Assembly (NCBI RefSeq): GCF_015169395.1
Contig: NZ_CP063458.1
Coordinates: forward strand, 4,092,001 to 4,156,000
Source: Humisphaera borealis
Lineage (GTDB): Bacteria; Planctomycetota; Phycisphaerae; Tepidisphaerales; Tepidisphaeraceae
Length of the DNA stretch: 64,000 nucleotides
Reading direction: 5' to 3'
The notes beneath the pieces are model-generated. The model did no database searches, was not told where the DNA came from, and saw only the letters and a program-made list of their open reading frames with translations. The position numbers and the translations under genes are program-made. Position 1 is the stretch's first letter. Every line of letters begins with the position of its first letter. This document shows, one piece after another, positions 21,059 to 56,096 of this stretch.

Positions 21059-23116
21059 CTAGCGAAGGATCAGGTCGTCCTTGTTAAACAGATCGTCCTT
21101 GTTGAGTTCCAGGGGCCTGGGCTTAGCCGGGTTCGGCTTGTCGGTATCGATTGCCTTGAGAATCGTATCGATCTGCTTCTGCGTTTCCGGACCCTGGCCG
21201 TCGCGCATCTGACGGAGAACGATGCCCGCCGCCGGACCGATGGAACGAAGCTGATCCGCGGCGCGTTCCCGCTTCTTCCAGTCGGGGTCGCCGAGGACGG
21301 CGACGATCTGGCGGATCTGTTCGACGATCGGCGCCGGTGCCGCCGGCTGCGGATGTTCGTAGGCGGCGATCGCCGTCACCGGCGCGCCAAGCGCGCCGCC
21401 CCCGCCAAGGGAGAAAGCGATCCTGTCTTGCCTGGTCCGGCCCGAGAGCGTGGCCCCGCCCCAGAGCGTGATCGTCACCTCGCCCGGCTGCACCGGACCA
21501 TCCTGGGACTGTTCGACGGGGCGAATCGCGCGGATTTCCGAGCCGTTCACTTTCAGCAGATCGAAGCCGGTTTGGATGTCGATCACGCCTGACGCGGTTG
21601 CGGAGAAGATGTCGCCGTTGCGAAACGTCAGCGTCGGGGAATCGGGCGGGGGCTCGATGTCGCCGGGCAGCAGCTGAAGGCGTTCAATGCTGGAGAGCGA
21701 CACTTTCACCATGGGCGGCGATGCGCCGTTACCGGCCGCCCCTTTGAATCGCACCTCGAGAGAGTCGCCGGGGATCAGTCCGGAAAACCTCGAGCCGTCG
21801 CGGAGGACGACTTTGTGGAAGACCTGTTCTTCTCCGGTGAAGAGGACGGCGGCGACCGTGGCGGGCGGGAGTTTCAGGTTGCCATATAGCGTGCCGACGT
21901 CGATGGCGGCGGCGGGCATTTCGACGAGCAGCCGCTGGCCGTCGCGAAGAAACAGCATGGGCTTGTCGACCTTGAACTCTTCGGGCTCGCCGGGCCGCTT
22001 GCGGCAGCCGACCTTCGCGATTTGCGAGAGCGGCACGGCGATGTTCTGCCCGCTGCTGAGCTGCAATTTCAGTGTGTCGCCGGCAAGCCGCCCGCCGACG
22101 ACTTCGCCGTCGGCCGTCACAAACAATTGCGTCGGGTAGTGGGTGCCAGCATTGACCATTCCAATGACCTGATCGGCCGGCAACTCGACGTGTCCGTGAC
22201 TGGCGGTGAGTTTAAAGACGGCGTCGGTCAGCCTGCCGCGGTACTGATCGCCGCTGCGCAGTTCGATGATGTCGGCCAGTTCGCTGCGGGGCAGCTCGAT
22301 GTTGGAAAGGACGGCGTCGCCCTTCCGAAAGTTGACGACGATGCGGCGGATGTCCTTCGGCAGGCCGGCAAGCAGGTCCTTGTCACGGCTGGTCCGCATG
22401 AAGTCGATCGCCTGGTCGTTCGTGGGCCGCATCGCCTGAAAGTGGACGACGGCGGCGGCCTGCCTGGGGAGAACCTCGACGTCATAGACCAGGTCGCACT
22501 GATCGGTGTTCGGCTGCGACGTGTAGTTGCACTGTACCTTCCCGCCGACGCCGCCACCCAGCATCGCGACGGCACGCCGGCCGTCGAAGATGCTGATGCC
22601 CAGCGGCGTGTTCTTCTTCGGATCATTGAAAGGCGTCGCGGTCTGGACACCGCCGCCCATATCGAAATTCAGTCGGAGCCGGACCCGGGCGATCTGCGTG
22701 GTGGGGTTTTCGATGACTTCGGTGTAGCGGCACCAGCCGGCCAGGGCGTTGACGGCGACCCGTCGGCTGACACGCACATCGCCGATCTGCTGTGGCGCGA
22801 ACGAGAGTTCGTTGGCCGCCGGATCGAACGCGGCGGTCTGCTGGGCGTTGAAGCTGTTGTCGTTGACCGCCAGGCGAGATGCGCCGTCGTAGAGGTCGTT
22901 CCCGCCGTCGCCGATCGTCCCGTCCTGCTGCACGTCCCAGGTGACGCCGAAGTTGTCCCGCATCACATGGGGGAGGGGCACCATTCCGGCGGCACCTTGT
23001 CCCGGCATTGGCCCGACGGCCTTGCGTGCCGACGCCGAAAGAGACAGACCGCCAACGAATGCGAAAGTCGCCAGCCACGTCAGCCGGGTGATGCTTGGGC
23101 TCACAGTTGTCCTCAC
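21059..23116 (-). CDS. Exported repeat-module protein, paralogue A
   Basis: 685 residues with a signal peptide (WLATFAFVGGLSLSASA). Residues ~45-250 are a beta-rich domain that also begins the next gene's product. Residues ~285-590 contain about six ~40-residue modules of the form x-G-D-x-hydrophobic-x-G, two strands, then a hydrophobic-Ile close (for example SGDQYRGRL...ELPADQVIGMV, and ADGEVVGGRL...VPLSQIAKVG), resembling small Sm/SH3-like barrels. The C-terminal ~80 residues look like a HEAT-type helical pair (DPDWKKRERAADQLRSIG). Clearly paralogous to its neighbour 36 bp upstream (e.g. both have VVELR/IIELR-x-GDQ). Function unknown. Confidence 0.72.
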   Translation of the reverse strand: MRTTVSPSITRLTWLATFAFVGGLSLSASARKAVGPMPGQGAAGMVPLPHVMRDNFGVTWDVQQDGTIGDGGNDLYDGASRLAVNDNSFNAQQTAAFDPAANELSFAPQQIGDVRVSRRVAVNALAGWCRYTEVIENPTTQIARVRLRLNFDMGGGVQTATPFNDPKKNTPLGISIFDGRRAVAMLGGGVGGKVQCNYTSQPNTDQCDLVYDVEVLPRQAAAVVHFQAMRPTNDQAIDFMRTSRDKDLLAGLPKDIRRIVVNFRKGDAVLSNIELPRSELADIIELRSGDQYRGRLTDAVFKLTASHGHVELPADQVIGMVNAGTHYPTQLFVTADGEVVGGRLAGDTLKLQLSSGQNIAVPLSQIAKVGCRKRPGEPEEFKVDKPMLFLRDGQRLLVEMPAAAIDVGTLYGNLKLPPATVAAVLFTGEEQVFHKVVLRDGSRFSGLIPGDSLEVRFKGAAGNGASPPMVKVSLSSIERLQLLPGDIEPPPDSPTLTFRNGDIFSATASGVIDIQTGFDLLKVNGSEIRAIRPVEQSQDGPVQPGEVTITLWGGATLSGRTRQDRIAFSLGGGGALGAPVTAIAAYEHPQPAAPAPIVEQIRQIVAVLGDPDWKKRERAADQLRSIGPAAGIVLRQMRDGQGPETQKQIDTILKAIDTDKPNPAKPRPLELNKDDLFNKDDLILR

Positions 23117-23152
23117 GTCAGCGAAGAGAAGAAGGTTCGCGCGGTCGGCTGG

Positions 23153-25204
23153 TCAGTTCCTGTCAATGATAACGTTATTCTCGATAATCCGGTTTTCGAT
23201 GAACTGTCCTCCCCGGAGAACACCCTCATGCGGGACGCCAGCGGGGGCTGCGGTGCCCGCGGCAGACTTGCCGGCGGGCTTTTCCTTCTGCTTTTCGAGC
23301 TCTTTCAGAATCGTATCGATCCGTTGCTGGGCCTCAGCCGGCTGACCATCGCGCAGGCGTTTGAGCGCGCTGATGGCGACCGGCCCGACCTGGATCAGGC
23401 CCTGCTGGGCGCGATCCCGGGCTTTCCAGTCTTCGGCTGACAGGTCCTTGATCAGCGTGGTGATCTTCGTCTCCATCTCCTTGCTCGGCGTCGGCTGCGG
23501 CTGCGTGTACTCCTGGAGCAGCGCCAGCGGGATCTTCATCTTCACCCCACCCGACAACGACACGGCCAGCTCCAGTTCCTGAAGCTGACCGGACACGCTG
23601 GAGCCGTCGAACAGGACCACCTGCACGTCGAGGCCACCTGCCTGCGGGCGTTTCAGTTCGCGAATCTCCGAGGCATTGATGGTCAGCGTGTCGAACGCGG
23701 TATCGACCTTCAGTGTCCCCGTCACCGATCCCACCAGCATGTCGTCGTTCGCGAGCTGGATTGTGGGGCTGACGTCATCAACCTCGGTGATCTTGGGCGT
23801 CAGTTGCAGGCGGGCGATCGAGCTGGCGGGGAACTTGACGACCTGCTCCGGGCCGCCGGCGTCGAGTGTCATCTCCAGCGACTCGGCCGACAGCAGGCCG
23901 GAGAACTTGCTCCCGTCGGTGAGCAGGATCTGGTGCATCGTTGTTTCATCGCTCTGCAGGACGATCGCGCCGACCTGTTCGGGCTTAAGCGTCAGCGGGC
24001 CGTAGCGGGTGGCGACCTCGAAACCTGTCTTGGGCATCTTCACGCCAACCCGCTCGCCGGACCGCATCAGGACGATCGGCTTTTCAAACACCCATTCATC
24101 AGGTTCGCCGGCGCGCTTGCGGTACCCCATGCGGTGCACCTGGCTCAGTGGAATCTTGGTGACCTGGCCGCTGGAAAGCTGCAATGACAAGGCGTCCTGT
24201 TTGAGGTTGCCGCCGAAGATCTGGCCGTCGGTCGTGACAACGAGTTGCCGCGGGCGAAACGCACCGACGTTGAGCAGCGCGATCACGCGATCGACCGGCA
24301 GTGTGACAGCGCCGTAGAAGGTGTCGAGATTGAAGCTCTCTTCCTTGAGCGTTCCCTTGAGCTGGTCACCGCCGCGAAGTTCGACCACGTCGAGGATGTC
24401 GCCACGGAGAATCTCAAGGTCGCCGACATAGCTCGCGCCGCCGGTGAAGTTGACGATCAGCTTGCGAATGTTGACGGGGATCTTCTTGAACAGGTCCGAT
24501 TCCTTGAGCTTCAGCAGGTACTGTGCACCGGCATCCTGGGTGGCGGTGCAGCCGTGCAGGTGCATCAGTGCGATTTCCTTGCCGGCTCCGACGGTAGTGT
24601 TGAAGTTGGCATTCACCACGCTGTTGCCGGGCTGGTAGTTGATGACCATCGGCGTCTTGGCGTTCTTGCCGGAGAACATCTCCATGACCGCGCCATTGCC
24701 GCTGGTCTGGGCGACCCAGGCGAACATCTGGTCTTTCTTTTTGGGATCGGGGAGCGACTGCGACGTGTTGACGCCGTAATTCAGGCTCGTCTGGATCATC
24801 GCATTCAGCGTCTGCTCCTGGTTGCTGGTGTTCTTGATGATGTCGATGTAGCGGACGGTGTTGTTTTCCTTGTCGAACATGATCCGCCGGGTGACGCTGA
24901 AGTTGGGCGAGGTCATGTTTTCAAGAAGCAATTCCCCGGTCTTCTCGTCGAGCCGGGCCATCCGGTCGCGCGACTGGGGCTGATTGCCGTTGAGGGTCAG
25001 CATGGCACCCTGCGAGTACAGCGGCTGATTCCCGGATTGTTGCAGGTAGCCGAACTGATAGACACGCCACTGATTCCCCATGTTGTCGGGAACGCTGTAG
25101 GGCAGTGGGACGTTCCCGCCGGCCGCCTTGGGTTGGGCGATGGCGGCAGCGCAAAGCGCAAGACTGAGCATTCCGGCGAGTACGGCTGGGATGGTTGGCT
25201 TCAT
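23153..25204 (-). CDS. Exported repeat-module protein, paralogue B
   Basis: 683 residues, signal peptide MKPTIPAVLAGMLSLALCAAAIAQ. Same layout as paralogue A: an N-terminal domain beginning VPLPYSVPDNMGNQW, an IRKLIVNFTGG strand just before the first module, six modules (from RGGDQLKGTL to FDGSSVSGQL) and a C-terminal HEAT-like tail (AEDWKARDRAQQGLIQVGP) ending in a Lys/Ala-rich stretch. A and B keep the same module order, so the pair arose by whole-gene duplication. Upstream of it lies a sugar-phosphate isomerase gene. The modules may bind a polymer; nothing catalytic is visible. Confidence 0.72.
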   Translation of the reverse strand: MKPTIPAVLAGMLSLALCAAAIAQPKAAGGNVPLPYSVPDNMGNQWRVYQFGYLQQSGNQPLYSQGAMLTLNGNQPQSRDRMARLDEKTGELLLENMTSPNFSVTRRIMFDKENNTVRYIDIIKNTSNQEQTLNAMIQTSLNYGVNTSQSLPDPKKKDQMFAWVAQTSGNGAVMEMFSGKNAKTPMVINYQPGNSVVNANFNTTVGAGKEIALMHLHGCTATQDAGAQYLLKLKESDLFKKIPVNIRKLIVNFTGGASYVGDLEILRGDILDVVELRGGDQLKGTLKEESFNLDTFYGAVTLPVDRVIALLNVGAFRPRQLVVTTDGQIFGGNLKQDALSLQLSSGQVTKIPLSQVHRMGYRKRAGEPDEWVFEKPIVLMRSGERVGVKMPKTGFEVATRYGPLTLKPEQVGAIVLQSDETTMHQILLTDGSKFSGLLSAESLEMTLDAGGPEQVVKFPASSIARLQLTPKITEVDDVSPTIQLANDDMLVGSVTGTLKVDTAFDTLTINASEIRELKRPQAGGLDVQVVLFDGSSVSGQLQELELAVSLSGGVKMKIPLALLQEYTQPQPTPSKEMETKITTLIKDLSAEDWKARDRAQQGLIQVGPVAISALKRLRDGQPAEAQQRIDTILKELEKQKEKPAGKSAAGTAAPAGVPHEGVLRGGQFIENRIIENNVIIDRN

Positions 25205-28284: not shown

Positions 28285-28643
28285 CGCCGCGGGACTTGAG
28301 AAGAGGGCCGCAGCATGATCCGCCGAAGCCTCATAAGTGCATTCAAGGAATTGACTTCCGTCGGTTGGCATGCCTCCGCATTTGTGAGCCTTTCTTGAGG
28401 CCGTATCCAATCCGCACACAATCCCATTCGATAGGCGGTATACTCCACCGTCAGGTGGGTTTGGTGGACAACCGATACACTGGTTTTCCACCATTGTGCG
28501 AGTGATCGCGAACACTTACCGATTTCAGGACCGGCCGACTGCCGCTTTGTCGTTGGTGTAACGGCCAACGGTCTGGTGTTTTCCTCGGCGGACCGTGTCG
28601 TGACACGCTCCGCTTCCGATGCTCTGATGGCGTGAGGATTTGG
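28285..28643. other. Intergenic region upstream of the exosortase operon
   Basis: ~360 bp without a convincing gene. It holds an imperfect dyad at 28463-28492 and a TATACT hexamer at 28439-28444 with no good -35 at standard distance. It should contain the promoter of the exosortase operon. A near sigma-54 match at about 28359 has GG-GC spacing of 9 rather than 10 and is not accepted. Confidence 0.4.
28463..28492. promoter_or_regulatory. Candidate operator dyad before exosortase gene
   Basis: GGTGGACAACC (28463-28473) and GGTTTTCCACC (28482-28492) are inverted with one mismatch and an 8-bp centre. The dyad sits 150 bp upstream of the exosortase start. A regulator-binding site is likely; which protein binds it is not known. 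Confidence 0.4.
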
Positions 28644-30752
28644 TTGAGCACCTTCACTACTCCAACGTCCGGCACAGGTCCCGCCTCTTCGACGGGTGCC
28701 AACTCTTCTGGGGCTGCTTCGGCGGCTCTGCCTCTGGGCTACTCGCAGTCTCATGGCGAGCCGCAGTGGCTCGGACTGCCGGTCTCCGCGTGGTTCAAGA
28801 TCGGCGTGATCAGCCTGCTGATGCTCGCCCTCTACTGGGCGAACTTCGCACGGCTTTGGCTCAAGACCAATCCTTTCACCGGCCAGGGCAACTGGGAACA
28901 CGCGATCGTCATTCCCCTGATCGGTATCTACTACCTGTATGTGTGGCGCGACCAGCTCCTGGGCCATGTAAGGCCGGAAGCCGATGCAAATCGATGGAGT
29001 CTTCCCGGCATCTGGGCGCTGCTCATGGGCGTTCCGCTGATGCTGGCCCTGGCGGCCCACCCGATCCTGCTCGCCGGCGGGGGCGGCGGCGTGAGCCCGG
29101 CGGAAGTGCTCGGCGGGTTTGCCGACGGTGGCGTTGCGAAGCTCATCCCCGTCGTCGCCGGCCTGGTCGTCCTGTCATCGGCAGCCGCGGGACTTGTTTA
29201 CCTCAAACGCCAGGAACTGAAGTACCCGGCCATGCAGGCCTGGCTCGATAACGTCTGGCACGGGCTTGGTGCTTGGTTGACGGCGATGGGCCTGCTGTGG
29301 GGCGTCTTCTTCTTCGTGGTCGTCCTGGTGCCCGCCAGTCTCGGATCGGTCACCAAGGTCGTCAGTTTCGTCATTGCGACCATCGGTCTGGCCGGCCTGG
29401 CTCACATCGCGTACTGGGGCAAGAGCAAGCTCTGGCGCGAGCGGTACGACGCCATCCTTTCCCGCTCGAGCGGATGGTTCGGCGGGTTCGTGATGATCTG
29501 GGGCATCCTGTTCAGCTTCTGGGGGATCTGGCCGGGGCAGAATGACTTCTTCAAAGACATCGGGATGGTCGTTGCGCTGTTCGGCGTGGTGACTTTGCTG
29601 GCCGGCTGGCGGGTTATGAAGGTGGCCTGGTTCCCGGTGGTGTTCCTCTTCTGTGCGATTCCCTGGCCCGACCAGGTCTACAGCTGGGTCGCAATGCCCC
29701 TCCAGAACTTCGCGGCCAAGATCGGTGTTTTTGCCCTGACACTCACCGGCGTGGATGCCGACAAGTTCGGCACCAAGATCCTCTTTGCAGGAAAAGACGG
29801 AAAGCCCGAGATGCTGAACGTCGCCGAGGCGTGTGCCGGCCTCAAGAGCCTGATGACCTTCATCTCTGTTGGTGCCGCTGTCGCGTTCCTTTCGACGCGG
29901 ATGCTTTGGCAGAAACTTCTGATTGTCGCGTCGGCCGTTCCGATCGCGATCCTGTGCAACGCCGGCCGTGTCGCCGGCCAGGGGCTCCTGCATCGGTACG
30001 TCAGCCCGGAGTGGTCGCAGAACTTTGCCCATGCCTTTGCCGGCCTGGTCATGCTGATTCCCGGGTTCTTCATGATCCTGGCGATCTGCTGGGTGATGGA
30101 TCACCTGTTCATCGAAGAAATCGAAGACGACGCCGTATTGAGGCGTGCGCGTAAATCCGCGGCATCTGCGGCGGCTTCCGGTGCGAGCGTGTTCTCGAAA
30201 GATGCGATCGGTGTTATCGAAGAGATTCGTGACCCGGCAGCGCCCGTCGCCGCCAAGGTCGAAGTCGCTGAGGCCGCCCACGCTGCCGGTTTGGCGACGG
30301 CGGCACCGACCGAAGCCGCCAAGCCGCGTCCCGCCGCCGCGCCTAAAGTCATTACGATTCCGAAGAGGCCCGCGCAGGGCGTGAACCAGTCTGCCGCAAC
30401 GGGTGCCAAGCCTGCGGCCGCCCCGGCGGCACGACCGGCGGCGTCGGTACCGACGACGGCAAACGCACCGGCCGATGCGACAAAGTCGGTCCCCGCCGCC
30501 GCACGCCCCGGTGTCGCGCCCGGTGGCCCTGCGGGCGCCGCCCGACCACAGGCTTCGGTCGTACCGCCGGCGGCCGGGCAGGTCTCGCCCAAGCCGACCA
30601 ACCGGGCAGCCACGACTTCATCCGCCGCAAGACCTGCGCCGGCAAAGCCTGCCCCGGCTAAACCGGTGGTACCGGCCAAACCCGCGGCCGCGCCCACTAA
30701 CGCCGCTGCTTCAGAACCGTCTGCATCGGCTCGTCCGGAGGACCGTCTATGA
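28644..30752 (+). CDS. Exosortase with long Ala/Pro C-terminal tail
   Basis: 702 residues from TTG 28644, chosen because GAGGA stands 5 nt upstream; a GTG at 28632 is in frame but poorly placed. About ten membrane helices fill residues ~45-500. The exosortase/archaeosortase triad is present: Cys397 in EACAGLKSL, Arg442 in CNAGRV and His463 in FAHAFAG. These membrane transpeptidases recognise a C-terminal tripartite sorting signal and anchor exported proteins, usually with an EPS locus. The ~190-residue tail after the last helix is low-complexity Ala/Pro (PAPAKPAPAKPVVPAKPAAA) and is unusual. The stop overlaps the next start (ATGA). The exosortase subtype cannot be fixed by eye. Confidence 0.9.
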   Translation: MSTFTTPTSGTGPASSTGANSSGAASAALPLGYSQSHGEPQWLGLPVSAWFKIGVISLLMLALYWANFARLWLKTNPFTGQGNWEHAIVIPLIGIYYLYVWRDQLLGHVRPEADANRWSLPGIWALLMGVPLMLALAAHPILLAGGGGGVSPAEVLGGFADGGVAKLIPVVAGLVVLSSAAAGLVYLKRQELKYPAMQAWLDNVWHGLGAWLTAMGLLWGVFFFVVVLVPASLGSVTKVVSFVIATIGLAGLAHIAYWGKSKLWRERYDAILSRSSGWFGGFVMIWGILFSFWGIWPGQNDFFKDIGMVVALFGVVTLLAGWRVMKVAWFPVVFLFCAIPWPDQVYSWVAMPLQNFAAKIGVFALTLTGVDADKFGTKILFAGKDGKPEMLNVAEACAGLKSLMTFISVGAAVAFLSTRMLWQKLLIVASAVPIAILCNAGRVAGQGLLHRYVSPEWSQNFAHAFAGLVMLIPGFFMILAICWVMDHLFIEEIEDDAVLRRARKSAASAAASGASVFSKDAIGVIEEIRDPAAPVAAKVEVAEAAHAAGLATAAPTEAAKPRPAAAPKVITIPKRPAQGVNQSAATGAKPAAAPAARPAASVPTTANAPADATKSVPAAARPGVAPGGPAGAARPQASVVPPAAGQVSPKPTNRAATTSSAARPAPAKPAPAKPVVPAKPAAAPTNAAASEPSASARPEDRL

Positions 30753-31696
30753 GTGATCCCGTGCAAGGCAATCAAGGCGACCTGCCGGCAAAGCCGTCGG
30801 CTGCCGCCGCATCATCGGTGCGGAAGGTGCTTCGCGAGCCGCGTTTCCTGGTCGCCGCGGTCGTGCTGCTGGTCTGCGCCGCCGGTTTCAACGCCGCGGC
30901 ACGCTCCCTGCAGCTGCACTTTCGCAAGCAGCCGGTTCCGTTGGCGGTGAAGTCGCTGGATGACAAGAATGAAGGCGTCTCGAGCGTGCTCGGCGGGCGT
31001 TGGATTCAGGTTACCGACGACCAGCCGTTGACTGCCGACGTCGAGCATGCGCTGGGCACCAAGCAGTATGTCATGCGGACCTATGCCGACTTCGTCGCCG
31101 CCAGGCGGACGGAGAACGAGCTCAAGGCACGGAATCCCGAAAAGATGGCGTCGATGCTGGCGGAACTTCAGAGTCGTCAGCCCGAGGCGATCATTCGCGT
31201 GGGAATTACGTACTACACGGGCCTGGTCGATACGGTGCCCCACATACCCGACCGCTGCATGGTCGCCGACGGCTACCAGCCGACCGACTATCGCGTGCTC
31301 GACGTGCCGAACGAGTATGCCGACGGAAAGCTCCGCGGCTTGAAGTTCCGCTTCATCACGTTCGAGGACATCACCGGCCGCGGCCGTATCACCCGCAACG
31401 TGGGCTACTTCTTCCACGTGAACGGGAGCTTCGAAGAGAACCCGCTGCGGGTACGGGCGACGCTCCAGAACCTGTTCGAAACGTACAGCTATTTCGCCAA
31501 GGTCGAGCTGATGACCGAACAGCCAGGGCATGGCGCAAGTGCCACCGGCGGCCGGGATCGGGCTGCCAAGGCGATGCAGGAGTTCTTGTTGGTGCTGCTA
31601 CCGGACCTGGAGCGCTGCCTCCCGGACTGGGAGAAGGTTTCCGGGAAGTCGGCGCAGCCGCCCGCAACGGCGCCCGCGGCCGTCGACCGTCAATGA
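30749..31696 (+). CDS. Exosortase-associated EpsI-like protein
   Basis: 315 residues, start ATG 30749 overlapping the exosortase stop by 4 bp, so translation is coupled. One N-terminal membrane helix (RFLVAAVVLLVCAAGFNAAA) anchors an extracytoplasmic domain containing the EpsI-type pattern IRVGITYYTGLVDTVPHIPDRCMVADGY split over two strands (YYxG, then PHxPxxC). EpsI proteins accompany or fuse to exosortases and are often required for EPS; their chemistry is unknown. The pair thus forms a split exosortase/EpsI module, followed 88 bp later by the large TPR protein gene. Confidence 0.87.
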   Translation: MSDPVQGNQGDLPAKPSAAAASSVRKVLREPRFLVAAVVLLVCAAGFNAAARSLQLHFRKQPVPLAVKSLDDKNEGVSSVLGGRWIQVTDDQPLTADVEHALGTKQYVMRTYADFVAARRTENELKARNPEKMASMLAELQSRQPEAIIRVGITYYTGLVDTVPHIPDRCMVADGYQPTDYRVLDVPNEYADGKLRGLKFRFITFEDITGRGRITRNVGYFFHVNGSFEENPLRVRATLQNLFETYSYFAKVELMTEQPGHGASATGGRDRAAKAMQEFLLVLLPDLERCLPDWEKVSGKSAQPPATAPAAVDRQ

Positions 31697-31784: not shown

Positions 31785-34700
31785 ATGGCTCGTCGCAAAC
31801 TCAATACGAAGGTCCTGGGCGTCCTGTTTGGTGTGCTGGTTGTCGGTGCCATCGGTGCCTTCGCGGCCAACAGGTTCCTCAAGCCGAGCAAAGACCCGCG
31901 TGTTCTCGAGGCCGACGGCGACAAGGCTTTCGCCGCCGGGGAGTATGAGCAGGCGCGTCTTGCGTTTGGCGGTGCCGCCGCAATCGAACGCAGCAATCCC
32001 GGACTGAAGGTCAAGTACGGCGACACGCTCATCAAGCTCACCCGCGAAGATCCGGTCAACCTTGGTCTGGCACTGCAATCGTGGGAAGCGGCACTGGGCG
32101 TCGACCCCAGCTATAAGCCGGCGCTGGAACGGCTCCTGACCTCGCGATGGGAACAGGTGGATCTGGGCGGCGGGCCGGAAGTCTTTGCCGACATCCGCCG
32201 ACGTGCCGACCAGCTCGCCAAGGCCGACCCTTCACACCCCAAGGCCAAGATCTGGCAGCACGTCGCCACGGTCCGCCAGGCGTTGTTGTCGCAGGCCGTT
32301 CCGCGCGACGAGATCGTGGCCAGCGCCGAGGCGCTGCAGGCGCTGGCGACCAGCAATCCGACCGACTCCGAGGCACCTTTCTACCTCGCCCAGCTCAAGA
32401 TCAAAGACGCGATCGAACGAAGCAGTGTGAAGGCACAGCGCGAGGCGGACCTGTCGTGCGACGATGCGATCAAGATCATCAGCGACGCGTTGAAGGGGCA
32501 GGAAAAGAACGCGCAGATGCAGTTCCGCGCGTCGACCGTCTTCAGGCAGTTGGCGCGTATCGACCGTCGCGCAGTTGAGCGCAAGCATGCGGAACGCGCC
32601 GGCGCCTGCATTCTTGCGGCGCAGCAGAACATCAAGAGCGGCGAACCCAACGTCGACGACATCACCCTGCTCGCCGCCGAGCAACTGTCCCGTGACGGCA
32701 AGGCCGACGAGTCGAGGCAGCTTTGCCGGGAGTATTTCGAGAAGAACCCCGACAACCAGCGGGCCCGCCTGGCCTGGGCCCGGTGGCTTTCGTCAAAGAA
32801 AGAGGAGCGCGACGCCGCGATTCAGATTCTCGCGCGGGAAGTGCCCCTTCCGAAGGACGCGGTGGGTGTCGGCGTGTTCCTGCACCGCGAGCAGCAGGCG
32901 TTGACGCTGTACGAACTGATCCGCCTGCGAATGGCCGACGCGATCACCGAGACTGACGACGAAAAGCAGAAGACCAAGCTGGCACTGGCCGACACCGACA
33001 TGGAACGCCTCCGTCGGATCGCCAGCCCGCGGGCACCGAAGGTGCTTGCCATCGAGGGACAGCTGCTGTTGATCAAGGGGCAGCAGGTGGAAGCGGTCAA
33101 GGTGATGGAGGAGGCGTACTCCGGCATGACCGCCGGCGCCAAGGATTGGGAGACGGTGTTCCGTCTCGCCCAGGCGTATGAAGGCGTCCGCCAGCCCGGT
33201 CGGGCCAGGAAACTTTGCGAGGAACTGGTCGCGCTCGGCGGCGACAGCAATTACGTTTTGCCCGCCCGCGCATTGCTTGCCGACCTGCTGATTCGGGAGA
33301 AGCGGCTCGATTCCGCGCTCGAGCAGATCAAGCAGATCGAGACAAAGTCCAAAGACTACCCCGGCTTGTCGCAGCTCCAGACCGCCTACCTGCTTGCTTC
33401 GGGCAAGGGTGCCGAAGTGGTGAAGAAGCTGCCGGAGAGCACCAACGCCGAACGCTGGACCAAGATCCGGTTCGCCGCGTCGCTGAACGATCAGAACGAG
33501 CAACTTCGCCTGCTAGCGGCGATCGTTGCCAACGAGCCGTCCGACGTCAATGCAGTCCGCTCGCTGGCTTCGATGTACAGGTCGATGAAGTTGAACGATC
33601 GTTGCTACCAGACGGTCCAGGCCGGGCTGAAGGCGAACCCTGACGAGCCGAGCCTGCTGCTGTTTAAGGCCGAGCTCGACGGTACCGATCCGAAGGAACT
33701 GCGCGAACTCGCCCGACAAACGATCGAAAAGACCGTCAAGGATCCTTTCGACAAGGCGATGCGGCTTTACGAGCTCGAGAAAATGGGTGGCTCGGCGGAA
33801 CTCGCCGCCGGTCACCTGAAGCAGGCCCTGGCAGTCAGGCCGCAGGATCTACGCGCGCTCGACCTGGTGTTCAGGGAGGCACTGGAGCGGCGGCAATTCG
33901 CCGACGCCAAGGTGTACATCGAAGCGCTGGTCAAACTGAACGCCGACCAGGTCGGCGGCCGGCTGTACCGGCACCGTCTTGCTGCCGCCGAGCAGGACTA
34001 TGTCGAGGCCGAGCGGATTGGCCTGGACCTGGTTACGCGTTACGCCGAGTTCGCGCAGAGCTGGCTCGCGCTGGGCCAGGCACAGGAGGCGCTTGGCAAG
34101 TGGAACGAGGCGATCCGCTCGTACAACGAAGTGCTCGCCCGCCAGCCGATGCATTACGAAGCGACACGTGCACTCGTCGATACGCTCTACAATGCCGGCC
34201 GTACCGAAGACGCCAAGGCCAGGCTCCGGGAGATGCGTGTCAACTATCCGAACGACACGACGGTACGGGAGCTTTTCCTGAACCATCTGGCGAACTTCGG
34301 TGAACCCCAGTCGGCGATCGCCGACCGCGAGGACCAGCTCAAGAAGAACGACAACGACCCCTGGGCATACCTGGCGCTGGCCGCCACCTACTTCAAGAAT
34401 GCCCAGCGGCTGTCGCTGGAGAACAAGCTGGACGAGTCCCGCAAGGAGATCGACAAGGCGTTTGAAAAGCTGTCGCAGGGCCAGAAGCGCTTCCCCGAGG
34501 ACGTCCGCTTCTACTCCCAGGTCGCCGAGATTCGTCAGTACAACGGGCAGCTCGAGCAGGCCGAGCAGGTCCTGAAAGATTTCACCCGTCGGGAGAACAT
34601 GAAGCAGGCACCGGCGCGTATCCGCCCGGAACCCTGGCTCGCGCTGGCCGATTTCTACGTTCGTACGAACAAGCTCAACGAAGCGATTGCGGCGTTGAAC

Positions 34701-36479
34701 GAGGCGCTGGTCCGCGCCGACAACAGCCTGGAAATACGGCTGCGGCTTGTGTCCACGCAGATGCAGGCGCGGAAGTTTGCCGATGCCGAAGGCACGCTTG
34801 ATGCGGTCCGAAACAACCCCGATCCGCGGGTCGCCCGCCAGCGGCTCGAACTTCTGATCGCCCAGCAGAAGCTGGCCGAGGCCGAGACGTCGATCAGGCA
34901 GGTGATCAAGCTTCGGGACGGCGTGGATTTGCGGAACCTGCTGGCCAGCATTCTGATCGACACCGGCCGGGAAGCCGAAGCGATCGTCGAACTGAACCGC
35001 GCCCTGGCGATGGACGCCAAGAGCGAGGCGTCGCGCTACCTGCGTGCGATGGCGATGGCCAAGAAGCGTCCGCCGGACACCGACGGGGCGATCAATGAAC
35101 TGGTGGAACTGAAACGGACCATGCCGAGTTCGATGCAGGCGCGGCTCCTTCTGGCCGAGCTCTATGACAGGACCGGCCGACGGGGCAACGCGATCCAGGA
35201 CCTTCAGGACGGGCTGAAGATCTCGCCGGGAAATCGCGAGGTGCGACTTTCGCTGATTCGGCTGTATCGCGCCGAACGGCCGGCAAAGTTCAAGGAAGCC
35301 TACGAACTGATCGCCGGTGCTGGGAACGACCCGGTGATGAAGACCGATCCCACCTGGCCGCGCGAAGCCGCCGTGCTTTTTGCACAGCAGCGGATGTTCC
35401 AGCAAGCCGTGGTATCGATGACCCGCGCGGTGCAGCTGTCGCCGGGCAATGTCGAGTACCGGCGCGAGCTGATCGACATGCTGCTACAGTTCAACGACCT
35501 GGCCGGCGCGCAGATTCAGACTGAGAAGCTGCTGCAGGAAGGGAGCGACTTCTGGTGGCTCCGCTTCCAGCGTGGCGTGGCAATCGGTCGGCAGATCGAC
35601 CGCAAGATGCTCGCCGACGCAAAGACGAACCCGACGGTTGCGGCGAAGGTGAACGAGCTCAAGTCGCAGTCGCTGACGGAGTTCGACCGGGCGCTCAAGA
35701 TGTCCGAAGCCGAGGGTGACGTCGAACGGCAGATCAGCATTCTGCGCACGCTGGGCGAAACGGTGGGCAACGACCAGGCGCTCTTGCGGGTGGATCCGAA
35801 GACGACGGACGATCCGACCAACCGATGGAAGCTACTGCAGATCGGGCTCAAACGAGCGAACGGTGATCTCGCCGGTGCCATCGCGCAGGCCGAACGCCTG
35901 TTGGCCGACCCGTCGAACAGGGTGACAGCTCCGGATCGCCGCGGCCCGCTGCTGCGTGCATTGGCCGACACGTACCAGAATCCGGGCAACCCGGATTACG
36001 TCAAAGCCCGGCGGTACTACGAGGAACTGCTGACGCTCGTACCCGACGACAGTGCCTCGCTGAACAATGTCGCTTACTTGCTGGCTGAAAGTATCGCGCC
36101 GCCGGAGCCGCAGTCGGCCAAGCTCTACAGCGAGCGAGCGTACGAGGCGACCCGGATCACCAATACCCCGAACGTGCTCATCATGGACACGCACGGCTGG
36201 GTGCTCGTGTTGTGCGGCGGCCCGGACGGCGAAAAAGGTCGCCGGATCCTACAGAAGATCGTTGAAGAGAACCCCCTGTTCATCGAAGCACGCTACCACT
36301 TGGGTGAGGCGCTCTTGCGCGTACAACCTATTGCACCCTCGCAAGCCGAGAAGGAGTTCACCGAATGTCTCCGACTAATGAATGAGGAAGAGAAAATCGG
36401 CGGCAAGATCGACGAGAAGCTCCGTGGACGCATTCAAACCGGTTTGGCGTCGGCACGAGAGAAGGTACGTGGCGGATGA
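31785..36479 (+). CDS. Giant TPR protein (PEP-CTERM/EPS-type)
   Basis: 1564 residues. A short basic N-terminus and a single membrane helix (VLGVLFGVLVVGAIGAFAANRF) are followed by tetratricopeptide-like repeats over almost the whole length, e.g. ADGDKAFAAGEYEQARLAFGGAA near 45-65, SWLALGQAQEALGKWNEAIRSYNEVL and the last ones near 1470. The architecture matches the TPR proteins (PrsT-like) that lie beside exosortase in EPS loci, where they are thought to scaffold assembly or export. Two TPR-rich blocks are separated by charged linkers. It follows the exosortase/EpsI pair and precedes the Wzz/BY-kinase. No catalytic domain is visible. Confidence 0.85.
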   Translation: MARRKLNTKVLGVLFGVLVVGAIGAFAANRFLKPSKDPRVLEADGDKAFAAGEYEQARLAFGGAAAIERSNPGLKVKYGDTLIKLTREDPVNLGLALQSWEAALGVDPSYKPALERLLTSRWEQVDLGGGPEVFADIRRRADQLAKADPSHPKAKIWQHVATVRQALLSQAVPRDEIVASAEALQALATSNPTDSEAPFYLAQLKIKDAIERSSVKAQREADLSCDDAIKIISDALKGQEKNAQMQFRASTVFRQLARIDRRAVERKHAERAGACILAAQQNIKSGEPNVDDITLLAAEQLSRDGKADESRQLCREYFEKNPDNQRARLAWARWLSSKKEERDAAIQILAREVPLPKDAVGVGVFLHREQQALTLYELIRLRMADAITETDDEKQKTKLALADTDMERLRRIASPRAPKVLAIEGQLLLIKGQQVEAVKVMEEAYSGMTAGAKDWETVFRLAQAYEGVRQPGRARKLCEELVALGGDSNYVLPARALLADLLIREKRLDSALEQIKQIETKSKDYPGLSQLQTAYLLASGKGAEVVKKLPESTNAERWTKIRFAASLNDQNEQLRLLAAIVANEPSDVNAVRSLASMYRSMKLNDRCYQTVQAGLKANPDEPSLLLFKAELDGTDPKELRELARQTIEKTVKDPFDKAMRLYELEKMGGSAELAAGHLKQALAVRPQDLRALDLVFREALERRQFADAKVYIEALVKLNADQVGGRLYRHRLAAAEQDYVEAERIGLDLVTRYAEFAQSWLALGQAQEALGKWNEAIRSYNEVLARQPMHYEATRALVDTLYNAGRTEDAKARLREMRVNYPNDTTVRELFLNHLANFGEPQSAIADREDQLKKNDNDPWAYLALAATYFKNAQRLSLENKLDESRKEIDKAFEKLSQGQKRFPEDVRFYSQVAEIRQYNGQLEQAEQVLKDFTRRENMKQAPARIRPEPWLALADFYVRTNKLNEAIAALNEALVRADNSLEIRLRLVSTQMQARKFADAEGTLDAVRNNPDPRVARQRLELLIAQQKLAEAETSIRQVIKLRDGVDLRNLLASILIDTGREAEAIVELNRALAMDAKSEASRYLRAMAMAKKRPPDTDGAINELVELKRTMPSSMQARLLLAELYDRTGRRGNAIQDLQDGLKISPGNREVRLSLIRLYRAERPAKFKEAYELIAGAGNDPVMKTDPTWPREAAVLFAQQRMFQQAVVSMTRAVQLSPGNVEYRRELIDMLLQFNDLAGAQIQTEKLLQEGSDFWWLRFQRGVAIGRQIDRKMLADAKTNPTVAAKVNELKSQSLTEFDRALKMSEAEGDVERQISILRTLGETVGNDQALLRVDPKTTDDPTNRWKLLQIGLKRANGDLAGAIAQAERLLADPSNRVTAPDRRGPLLRALADTYQNPGNPDYVKARRYYEELLTLVPDDSASLNNVAYLLAESIAPPEPQSAKLYSERAYEATRITNTPNVLIMDTHGWVLVLCGGPDGEKGRRILQKIVEENPLFIEARYHLGEALLRVQPIAPSQAEKEFTECLRLMNEEEKIGGKIDEKLRGRIQTGLASAREKVRGG

Positions 36480-54046: not shown

Positions 54047-54970
54047 TCACACCGCCCGGCGTCGCAGCAGCGTCGTCACGCTTTCAATCAGCGACCGTTC
54101 GGTAACGAACGAATAGAACTCGGCCCCCATCGCACGGCAGGTCTGCTCCAGGTCGGCCCGGTGCCTGCGGAAGTTGTCGAGATACACCTTCCGCACGATC
54201 GCCGGCTCGCAGAGCCGTGATTTCTCCCCCTCCATCCCGCGAAAACGCGACCATCGCTTGAACGGAAAATGCACCTCATCCTGGTGCAATACCTGGATCA
54301 CAATCGCCTCATGGCGGTCGTGCTGAAGGCGCGACAACCCTTTGCGAATCTCGACGACCGGGGAGAAGCAATCGGAGACCGCGATGACCAGTGCGCGCCG
54401 GTCGAGCCGGTCGGCGGCTTCGGTCAACGCCGGGCCGAGGTTCGACGGACCGCGCGGGGTAGACCGCTCCAGGATATCGATCAGGTGCGACAACTGCTTG
54501 ATCCCCGCCTTCGGTGCCAGCCAGTGGTCGATCTTCGACGAGAAGCTGGCGATCCCCACGCTCTCGGTCTGCCCCAGCATCAGGTACGCCAGCGACGCCA
54601 GCAGTCGGGACGCGTAATCGAACTTGCCGGTGGTCGAGCCGTCTTCACGCGGTTTGAGCGGGCCGTCGCCCTTGCCGGCGTACGACATCGACCCGCTGGC
54701 GTCGAGCATCAGCAGGCAGCGGAGATTGGTCTCTTCGTCGTATTCCTTGATGTAAGGCCGATCGGTCCGCCCCAACACGCGCCAATCGAGCCGCCGAAGT
54801 TCGTCGCCGGGCGAATAGAACCGATGCTGCCGGAACTCGACGCTGGCCCCCTTCACCGGGCTGCGGTGCAGGCCGCTGATGGTGCCTTCGACGACGCTGC
54901 GCGCCGAAAGCTGAAGGTGGTTCAGCTTCTCGATGAGGGCGGGGTCGAGAAATCGGCTGACGAAGTTCAT
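54047..54970 (-). CDS. DUF58-domain protein
   Basis: 307 residues. Typical DUF58: RSVVEGTISGLHRSPVKGASVEFRQHRFYSPGDELRRLDWRVLGRTDRPYIKEYDEE split over the conserved block, followed by a VWA-like part, LLMLDASGSMSYAGKG. Such proteins often act with MoxR ATPases and VWA proteins in cell-envelope assembly. Its start overlaps the stop of the kinase-like gene upstream by 4 bp (ATGA), so they are translationally coupled; no MoxR gene is in the window next to it. Confidence 0.9.
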   Translation of the reverse strand: MNFVSRFLDPALIEKLNHLQLSARSVVEGTISGLHRSPVKGASVEFRQHRFYSPGDELRRLDWRVLGRTDRPYIKEYDEETNLRCLLMLDASGSMSYAGKGDGPLKPREDGSTTGKFDYASRLLASLAYLMLGQTESVGIASFSSKIDHWLAPKAGIKQLSHLIDILERSTPRGPSNLGPALTEAADRLDRRALVIAVSDCFSPVVEIRKGLSRLQHDRHEAIVIQVLHQDEVHFPFKRWSRFRGMEGEKSRLCEPAIVRKVYLDNFRRHRADLEQTCRAMGAEFYSFVTERSLIESVTTLLRRRAV

Positions 54971-55977
54971 GAGTCGCAGGCCACGGAATAGAAGCCAGGG
55001 GACAACGATGACTGCTTTGCGCCGGGGGCCGTGTCCGGAAGCCGCTCCTCGATCCAGGACTTGCCTGATTTTATCCAGTCGGGAACGGGGTCGTTGGGAA
55101 ACTTGACGATCCGCCAGCCGGCGTACGCCGCCGCGATGCCAAACGTCATGACGACCAATGCCCAGAAGAGCGACCGCCGTCGCGGCGTGTGCTCGGGCTC
55201 GACCAATGCGGCGGGGGAGACGCCGACACGCTCCCGCGATTCGATGATTCCCGATAGCCGGGTCGCCAGGATCCGCAGTACGGCCTCGCTCCCGGGTGCC
55301 ACGCCGTCCTCTGGCGAAAGCATCGCTTCGATGCCGGCGACGATCGTCCCGAGTGGCGTCTTTTCTTCCTTGCGATCGTGCAGGATCGCCTGCAGCGTGT
55401 TGACCACGCCCCAGAGGTCATCCGCGGGATCGGTGTAAAGAAGCGGGCTGACGTGTGTCAGCCGGACGTTGCCGTGGGCATCGACGACGACATTCGATCC
55501 ACGGATCGCACCGTGCACGATGCCCTGGCGATGCAGCGATTCGACCATCAGCACCAGCTCACGAGCGGCCAGGGCCAGCTTCCGCTGGGTGCAGCCGGCG
55601 TCGGCGGCGTAGTCGGTCAGGGTCTTGCCCTGCACGTATTCCCAAATGAGCCAGGCCTCGTTCGGCGCGGCGTTTTCCGGCTCGCGTTCGACGCCATAAA
55701 GGTTCGCCACGCCCGCCAATGCCAGTTCGCGGACACGTCCGAGGCGTTCCTTGATGCTGGGGTGAAGTCCCTGCTTGATGATGCAGTCGCGGTCGAGGGG
55801 TTTGAGCACGATGCCGCGCCCGCCGGGCCCGATCGCGAGGTAGCTCGGGCCCAGAAAATCGGTGTCGCCGGCGAGGGACGACTTCAGCGTCGAATCGACG
55901 GGATAACCGCAGATCTCGGCCCGCAATTTCTCCGATGACACGCCGTTGGTCGAGATGGAGTCGGTCGCGGCGGACAT
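54967..55977 (-). CDS. Membrane-anchored pseudokinase
   Basis: 336 residues from ATG 55977. Protein-kinase-like N-terminal lobe (strand with K59 in GIVLKPLDRD) and C-lobe; however the catalytic loop reads H155-G-A-I-R-G-S-N where active kinases have HRDLKxxN, and the DFG is THV (174-176), so both the catalytic base and the metal-binding Asp are missing. A single membrane helix (~270-288) follows and a short external tail ends the protein. It probably senses or scaffolds rather than phosphorylates. Coupled to DUF58 downstream. Confidence 0.82.
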   Translation of the reverse strand: MSAATDSISTNGVSSEKLRAEICGYPVDSTLKSSLAGDTDFLGPSYLAIGPGGRGIVLKPLDRDCIIKQGLHPSIKERLGRVRELALAGVANLYGVEREPENAAPNEAWLIWEYVQGKTLTDYAADAGCTQRKLALAARELVLMVESLHRQGIVHGAIRGSNVVVDAHGNVRLTHVSPLLYTDPADDLWGVVNTLQAILHDRKEEKTPLGTIVAGIEAMLSPEDGVAPGSEAVLRILATRLSGIIESRERVGVSPAALVEPEHTPRRRSLFWALVVMTFGIAAAYAGWRIVKFPNDPVPDWIKSGKSWIEERLPDTAPGAKQSSLSPGFYSVACDS

Positions 55978-56096
55978 CAATACCCAAAGGGTATCCGACG
56001 AAGGGAGCGATAGGAACAGAATCGCAAACCGAGGCTATGTTCGACCTTCAATCTTCGATGTTCGTCCCTTGTCTGCTATGATCCCCGCCGACACGG

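Follow-up and report, generated by a model that had tools for sequence, protein, structure and literature searches.

Classical Bat operons encode a MoxR ATPase, a DUF58 protein, BatA, and proteins with tetratricopeptide repeats (TPR) and SH3 domains, and the VWA domain of BatA faces the periplasm (PMC5700661). MoxR ATPases have chaperone-like roles in the maturation of protein complexes (PMC3893208). A second point of comparison is ImpE/TagJ (HsiE1; PDB 4uqx-4uqz), a cytoplasmic accessory protein of the type VI secretion system (T6SS), whose C-terminal domain forms a 12-stranded β-barrel and accommodates the N-terminal peptide of HsiB1 (TssB1) in a groove (PMC4239648). Here, we describe a pair of adjacent genes in a 64-kb stretch (the window) of the Humisphaera borealis genome, which is a single contig of 7.19 Mb. 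The two exported proteins each carry three tandem double barrels that are predicted to resemble the ImpE/TagJ domain, and related proteins are encoded in operons of the MoxR-DUF58-BatA type.

The pair occupies positions 21059-25204 of the window on the minus strand, as two co-directional open reading frames 36 bp apart. P0002 (23153-25204; 683 aa, ATG start) is transcribed first and P0001 (21059-23116; 685 aa, GTG start) second, and the proteins share 34% identity over 625 aligned residues (E 4e-126). Both look exported on inspection. The predicted signal peptide of P0002 spans about residues 1-23 (25136-25204), with a hydrophobic N-terminus, a helix at residues 5-22 in the structural model and cleavage after AIA; that of P0001 spans about residues 1-30 (23027-23116) and was identified by inspection and a simple sequence test, which 58 of the 68 aligned family members pass. 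Few membrane spans are predicted among these 68. In P0002, the signal peptide is followed by a predicted β-supersandwich domain (residues 28-246; 24467-25123), an array of six small modules and a short HEAT-like tail (residues 573-641; 23282-23488), and P0001 has the same architecture. An initial annotation had described the genes as tandem exported paralogues with a shared N-terminal domain and no named family, and this description stands: neither protein matched anything above cut-off in Pfam or NCBIfam.

To characterize the repeats, the six modules were cut from the alignment of 68 homologues and compared profile against profile. All 15 module pairs matched one another (E 6e-13 to 1.5e-7), far below the E values of at least 0.03 obtained when the same segments were compared with the N-terminal domain or the HEAT tail, so the repetition is not a chance resemblance. 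Profile scores were 48-52 between odd-numbered modules and 45-48 between even-numbered ones, but only 30-40 between odd and even. Modules of the same parity are the most alike, and the array therefore consists of three copies of a unit of about 105 residues, designated A-B. In P0002, where boundaries were set by profile comparison and the model, these are A1 (residues 267-315; 24260-24406), B1 (316-362; 24119-24259), A2 (372-418; 23951-24091), B2 (419-469; 23798-23950), A3 (476-521; 23642-23779) and B3 (522-569; 23498-23641). The corresponding modules of P0001 are A1 (residues 277-325; 22142-22288), B1 (326-372; 22001-22141), A2 (382-428; 21833-21973), B2 (429-483; 21668-21832), A3 (490-535; 21512-21649) and B3 (536-589; 21350-21511). 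The six units of about 40 residues proposed initially are thus real and mutually homologous, each of about 45 residues, but they form three A-B pairs and not six equal units.

Hidden Markov models built from the same alignment read the order ABABAB in 66 of 68 proteins, a circular result since the models were trained on the proteins being read. In a stricter test, whose training excluded the lineage as well as the module position, the type was assigned correctly for 116 of 126 modules in the order to which H. borealis belongs and 146 of 180 in a second Phycisphaerae family, against 55 of 102 (54%) in a deep lineage, which is not above chance there. On these sequence comparisons, A-B alternation is firm for the class Phycisphaerae, and it is claimed for that class only. 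Nearly all full-length members have six modules, while fewer are detected in other exported proteins, so that module number does vary, as the initial annotation had proposed to check. By sequence, the modules do not match a described domain; among the 68 members, matches of β-modules to domain models were isolated and weak at most. SHD1 (PF03983) was rejected, with no match in the H. borealis genome at E 0.1 or in the 68 members, although the controls themselves matched weakly, and LSM/Sm was unconvincing (one of 68 members at E 0.0098; SmD1 in the PDB at E 0.66).

Structures of full-length P0002 and of its module array alone were predicted with AlphaFold2 (mean predicted local distance difference test, pLDDT, of 89.6 and 92.3, respectively; predicted TM score, pTM, of 0.86 for the array), and strands were assigned by DSSP. 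In both models, each of the six modules consists of five strands, the fifth preceded by a short 3-10 turn as in SH3-like domains, and the modules are accordingly classed as predicted SH3-like small barrels. The earlier description of the modules as barrel-like is borne out, and the array is not one continuous fold but six separate, if rigidly arranged, barrels. A six-bladed propeller was rejected, as every modelled module closes as its own barrel; Foldseek matches of the array to propellers (2z2o and others) had a TM score of 0.12 and a root-mean-square deviation of over 20 Å and were discarded, and no global structural match to the whole array was found by Foldseek. The closest structural match of the modelled A-B unit is the C-terminal domain of HsiE1/TagJ, on which A3-B3 superposes with Z 7.5 (2.5-2.6 Å, 84-85 residues, 21% identity), the next entries being at Z 3.2. 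ImpE/TagJ differs in being cytoplasmic, with an N-terminal TPR and a single unit, whereas the window proteins are exported, carry three tandem units and begin with a β-supersandwich, not TPR; no T6SS genes were seen among the neighbours scanned with Pfam. An ImpE-family match with a TPR-like N-terminus also occurs in a planctomycete (L172), more weakly than others (E 4e-13). Beyond the barrels, the tail is supported as HEAT-like by HEAT_2 matches in 17 of 68 members, by alphaRep chains in a profile search of the PDB, and by four paired helices at residues 575-641 of the P0002 model, in keeping with its initial description; in P0001 it spans residues 598-657 (21146-21325), placed in part from the alignment of the two proteins.

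Modules of the same type occur in other exported proteins. A module profile search of the H. borealis genome retrieved a third protein (G000:C1:200377, E 2.3e-4) with a signal peptide, modules and an NPCBM domain, and the module region of 17 aligned relatives of this protein matched A3-B3 with 98% probability (E 2.8e-13). These NPCBM/NEW2 planctomycete proteins (L163 and L174) share a region matching the A-B unit with the window pair, but have fewer modules, a C-terminal NPCBM domain, and neither the N-terminal supersandwich nor the HEAT tail, and are encoded in a MoxR operon. The modules are also found joined to PPC domains and to domains resembling formylglycine-generating enzyme (FGE-sulfatase). 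An exported protein with a module array fused to an FGE-sulfatase domain is encoded at L026 (658-2361, minus strand), and further exported proteins with module arrays are found at L019, L021 and L022, with PPC matched in L021 and L022 and a HEAT tail in L021.

The operon containing the H. borealis NPCBM gene comprises seven genes in the order MoxR-DUF58-BatA-GATase/VWA-like-DUF4175-toroid-module/NPCBM (L174, 3555-18163; G000:C1 about 186554-201162). The toroid gene specifies an α/α-toroid, squalene-cyclase-like protein, and the module/NPCBM gene comes last. This order is kept in all six relatives for which the whole stretch is covered, a count that rests on six of the genes, the toroid excepted. 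The full-length pair itself shows a similar association in the deep lineage, where it lies immediately upstream of a MoxR operon: a gene for a conserved membrane/coiled-coil protein (c1) follows the pair in 10 loci and MoxR is present in seven of the 10; a TPR/PQQ protein comes next, and then DUF58, BatA and VWA/GATase genes where the contig reaches that far. Like the SH3/TPR partners of Bat systems (BatE-like proteins), the module proteins of these related loci are exported SH3-like barrels whose genes accompany MoxR, DUF58 and BatA. Unlike Bat partners, which have one SH3 domain with TPR, they combine glycan-type domains with arrays of several barrels; the window pair itself is not MoxR-linked.

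Our preferred reading, which we put forward tentatively, is that the pair are two exported, non-enzymatic scaffold proteins of the envelope, connected through their relatives to MoxR-DUF58-BatA/VWA systems. The predicted supersandwich domain would probably bind an envelope or extracellular glycan, and the three rigidly stacked double barrels, by analogy with the HsiE1 groove, would probably provide grooves for docking proteins or peptides, with the short HEAT tail as a further protein-binding surface. The paralogues probably function jointly, perhaps as a heteromer. Proteins with such modules appear to act in the periplasm as partners of MoxR-DUF58-BatA/VWA envelope systems, with a role comparable to that of the BatE-like SH3/TPR proteins; the simplest reading is that in planctomycetes they are exported SH3-like partners of Bat-type systems in which a glycan-type domain may serve as tether. 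The window pair may share this role by extension from its relatives, whose operon linkage suggests an envelope scaffold over an enzyme.

Several observations weigh against this reading. No MoxR gene was found beside the pair at the window locus or at about 36 pair loci of its own family and the second Phycisphaerae family, with flanks scanned to about 8 kb and many contigs short, so that MoxR linkage of the pair was observed in the deep lineage only, and otherwise for the NPCBM relative. Because these genomes contain many MoxR genes, the argument rests on conserved gene order and not on mere proximity. Comparison of ImpE with the module profiles gave probabilities of 2-14%, slightly above column-shuffled decoys; homology to ImpE is not supported by sequence, and the likeness is therefore used as a mechanistic analogy only. 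Lastly, the N-terminal domain and the linker behind it contain conserved charged residues, with R106 and N252 invariant, E91, R107, R118 and N125 near-invariant, and R267 also conserved, and R106, R107, R118, N125, N252 and R267 could form part of an unrecognised active site.

These residues bear directly on the best-surviving alternative, namely that the proteins are secreted carbohydrate-active enzymes or lectins in which the supersandwich does the work, as an epimerase-like or glycan-binding domain, while the barrels and HEAT tail serve only as spacers or anchors. The predicted fold of residues 28-246 is a β-supersandwich of the glycoside-phosphorylase/mutarotase type, aligning by VIA-align with Z 17.0 to 9ju0, 14-15 to the N-terminal domains of glycoside hydrolase families GH65 and GH94, and 13-17 across GH94/GH65 and aldose 1-epimerases; the top confident matches in a viral structure library were likewise N-terminal domains of glycoside hydrolases. 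This strong fold match, the conserved residues and the union of related modules with NPCBM carbohydrate-binding domains all speak for a carbohydrate-directed function. In GH65 and GH94, however, the N-terminal domain is followed by an (α/α)6 catalytic domain, in place of which the window proteins have six barrels and a short HEAT tail, and Pfam gave no match to the N-terminal domain of the window proteins. The catalytic histidine of mutarotases is not among the residues conserved in at least 60% of the family, and the part common to module-bearing architectures is the barrel array, not the N-terminal domain. The missing phosphorylase catalytic domain and the lack of strong conservation at the mutarotase histidine make an enzyme less likely, while the conserved arginines leave some room for one.

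The distribution of the pair bears on a further alternative, that the stacked barrels form a rigid rod or part of a lattice in the proteinaceous planctomycete envelope, without specific partners. Homologues occur in 17 of the 26 genomes of the order (E 0.001), yet several full genomes of the family to which H. borealis belongs lack the pair. In family f108 of the same class, matches were obtained in 27 sampled genomes, and 24 of these have at least two matched stretches; most loci retrieved from this family carry an adjacent, co-directional pair. Full-length but more distant relatives are found elsewhere in the Planctomycetota, although many of the 100 matches from the phylum sample cover the HEAT tail only; as judged from sequence, the layout occurs widely across the phylum. 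Contig scans gave no match with the window protein as query, and one relative as query retrieved five loci in Phycisphaerae metagenome-assembled genomes. The rigid predicted array, export with few predicted membrane spans and the tandem duplication would suit a structural surface protein. There is, however, usually one pair per genome and no large amplification; this, the occurrence of relatives in MoxR operons and the full genomes without the pair make a purely structural role improbable. Part in a defence system is very improbable: biological conflict systems combining MoxR, VWA and β-propeller proteins have been described (PMC7159879) and the deep-lineage operon has MoxR, VWA and a PQQ propeller protein with a weak bpMoxR match (E 7e-10), but AAA_3 is a far better match (1.6e-57), DUF58 and BatA mark a Bat-type operon, the pair has no match in the PADLOC defence library, and the proteins carry signal peptides.

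In the phylogenetic tree, first and second copies form separate clades inside each of three lineages, and a single clade of all second copies was rejected by the approximately unbiased (AU) test (p 4e-7), which speaks against one ancient pair common to all lineages. The duplications look to have occurred separately in the three lineages, although the same pattern could arise from gene conversion or long branches. A very divergent relative of the first copy (profile E 6e-33), without a Pfam or NCBIfam match, lies upstream of a MoxR operon at L140 (10310-12412, minus strand).

The initial annotation had also noted neighbouring genes for a Kdo-type isomerase (KpsF), YfhO and a GT-C protein (GT87). 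This synteny is not conserved, as KpsF recurs only in a genome of the same genus and YfhO and GT87 in none, and the lipopolysaccharide/glycan gene context was dropped as a clue. Adjoining the pair is an exopolysaccharide (EPS)/PEP-CTERM-like cluster, with an EpsH-type exosortase followed by a weakly matched DUF3485 protein (E 6e-4) at 28632-31696 and then a 1564-aa TPR protein (31785-36479). Elsewhere in the window (54047-55980), a DUF58 gene overlaps a protein-kinase-like gene, and no MoxR match was obtained in the window by tblastn.

The folds of the building blocks are known, but no model in the libraries searched covers the combination of a glycan-type supersandwich domain, three A-B double barrels and a HEAT tail, or the repeat family as such. 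A broader proposal, more doubtful than the reading preferred for the pair, is that tandem double SH3-like barrels would constitute a phylum-wide exported adaptor, tethered to glycan in the periplasm and serving MoxR-DUF58-BatA chaperones as client or docking arm; the supersandwich pair would be the largest, heterodimeric form of this adaptor. With the module family, the poorly understood periplasmic face of MoxR-VWA systems can be approached from sequence, here in a phylum whose cell envelopes are unusual.

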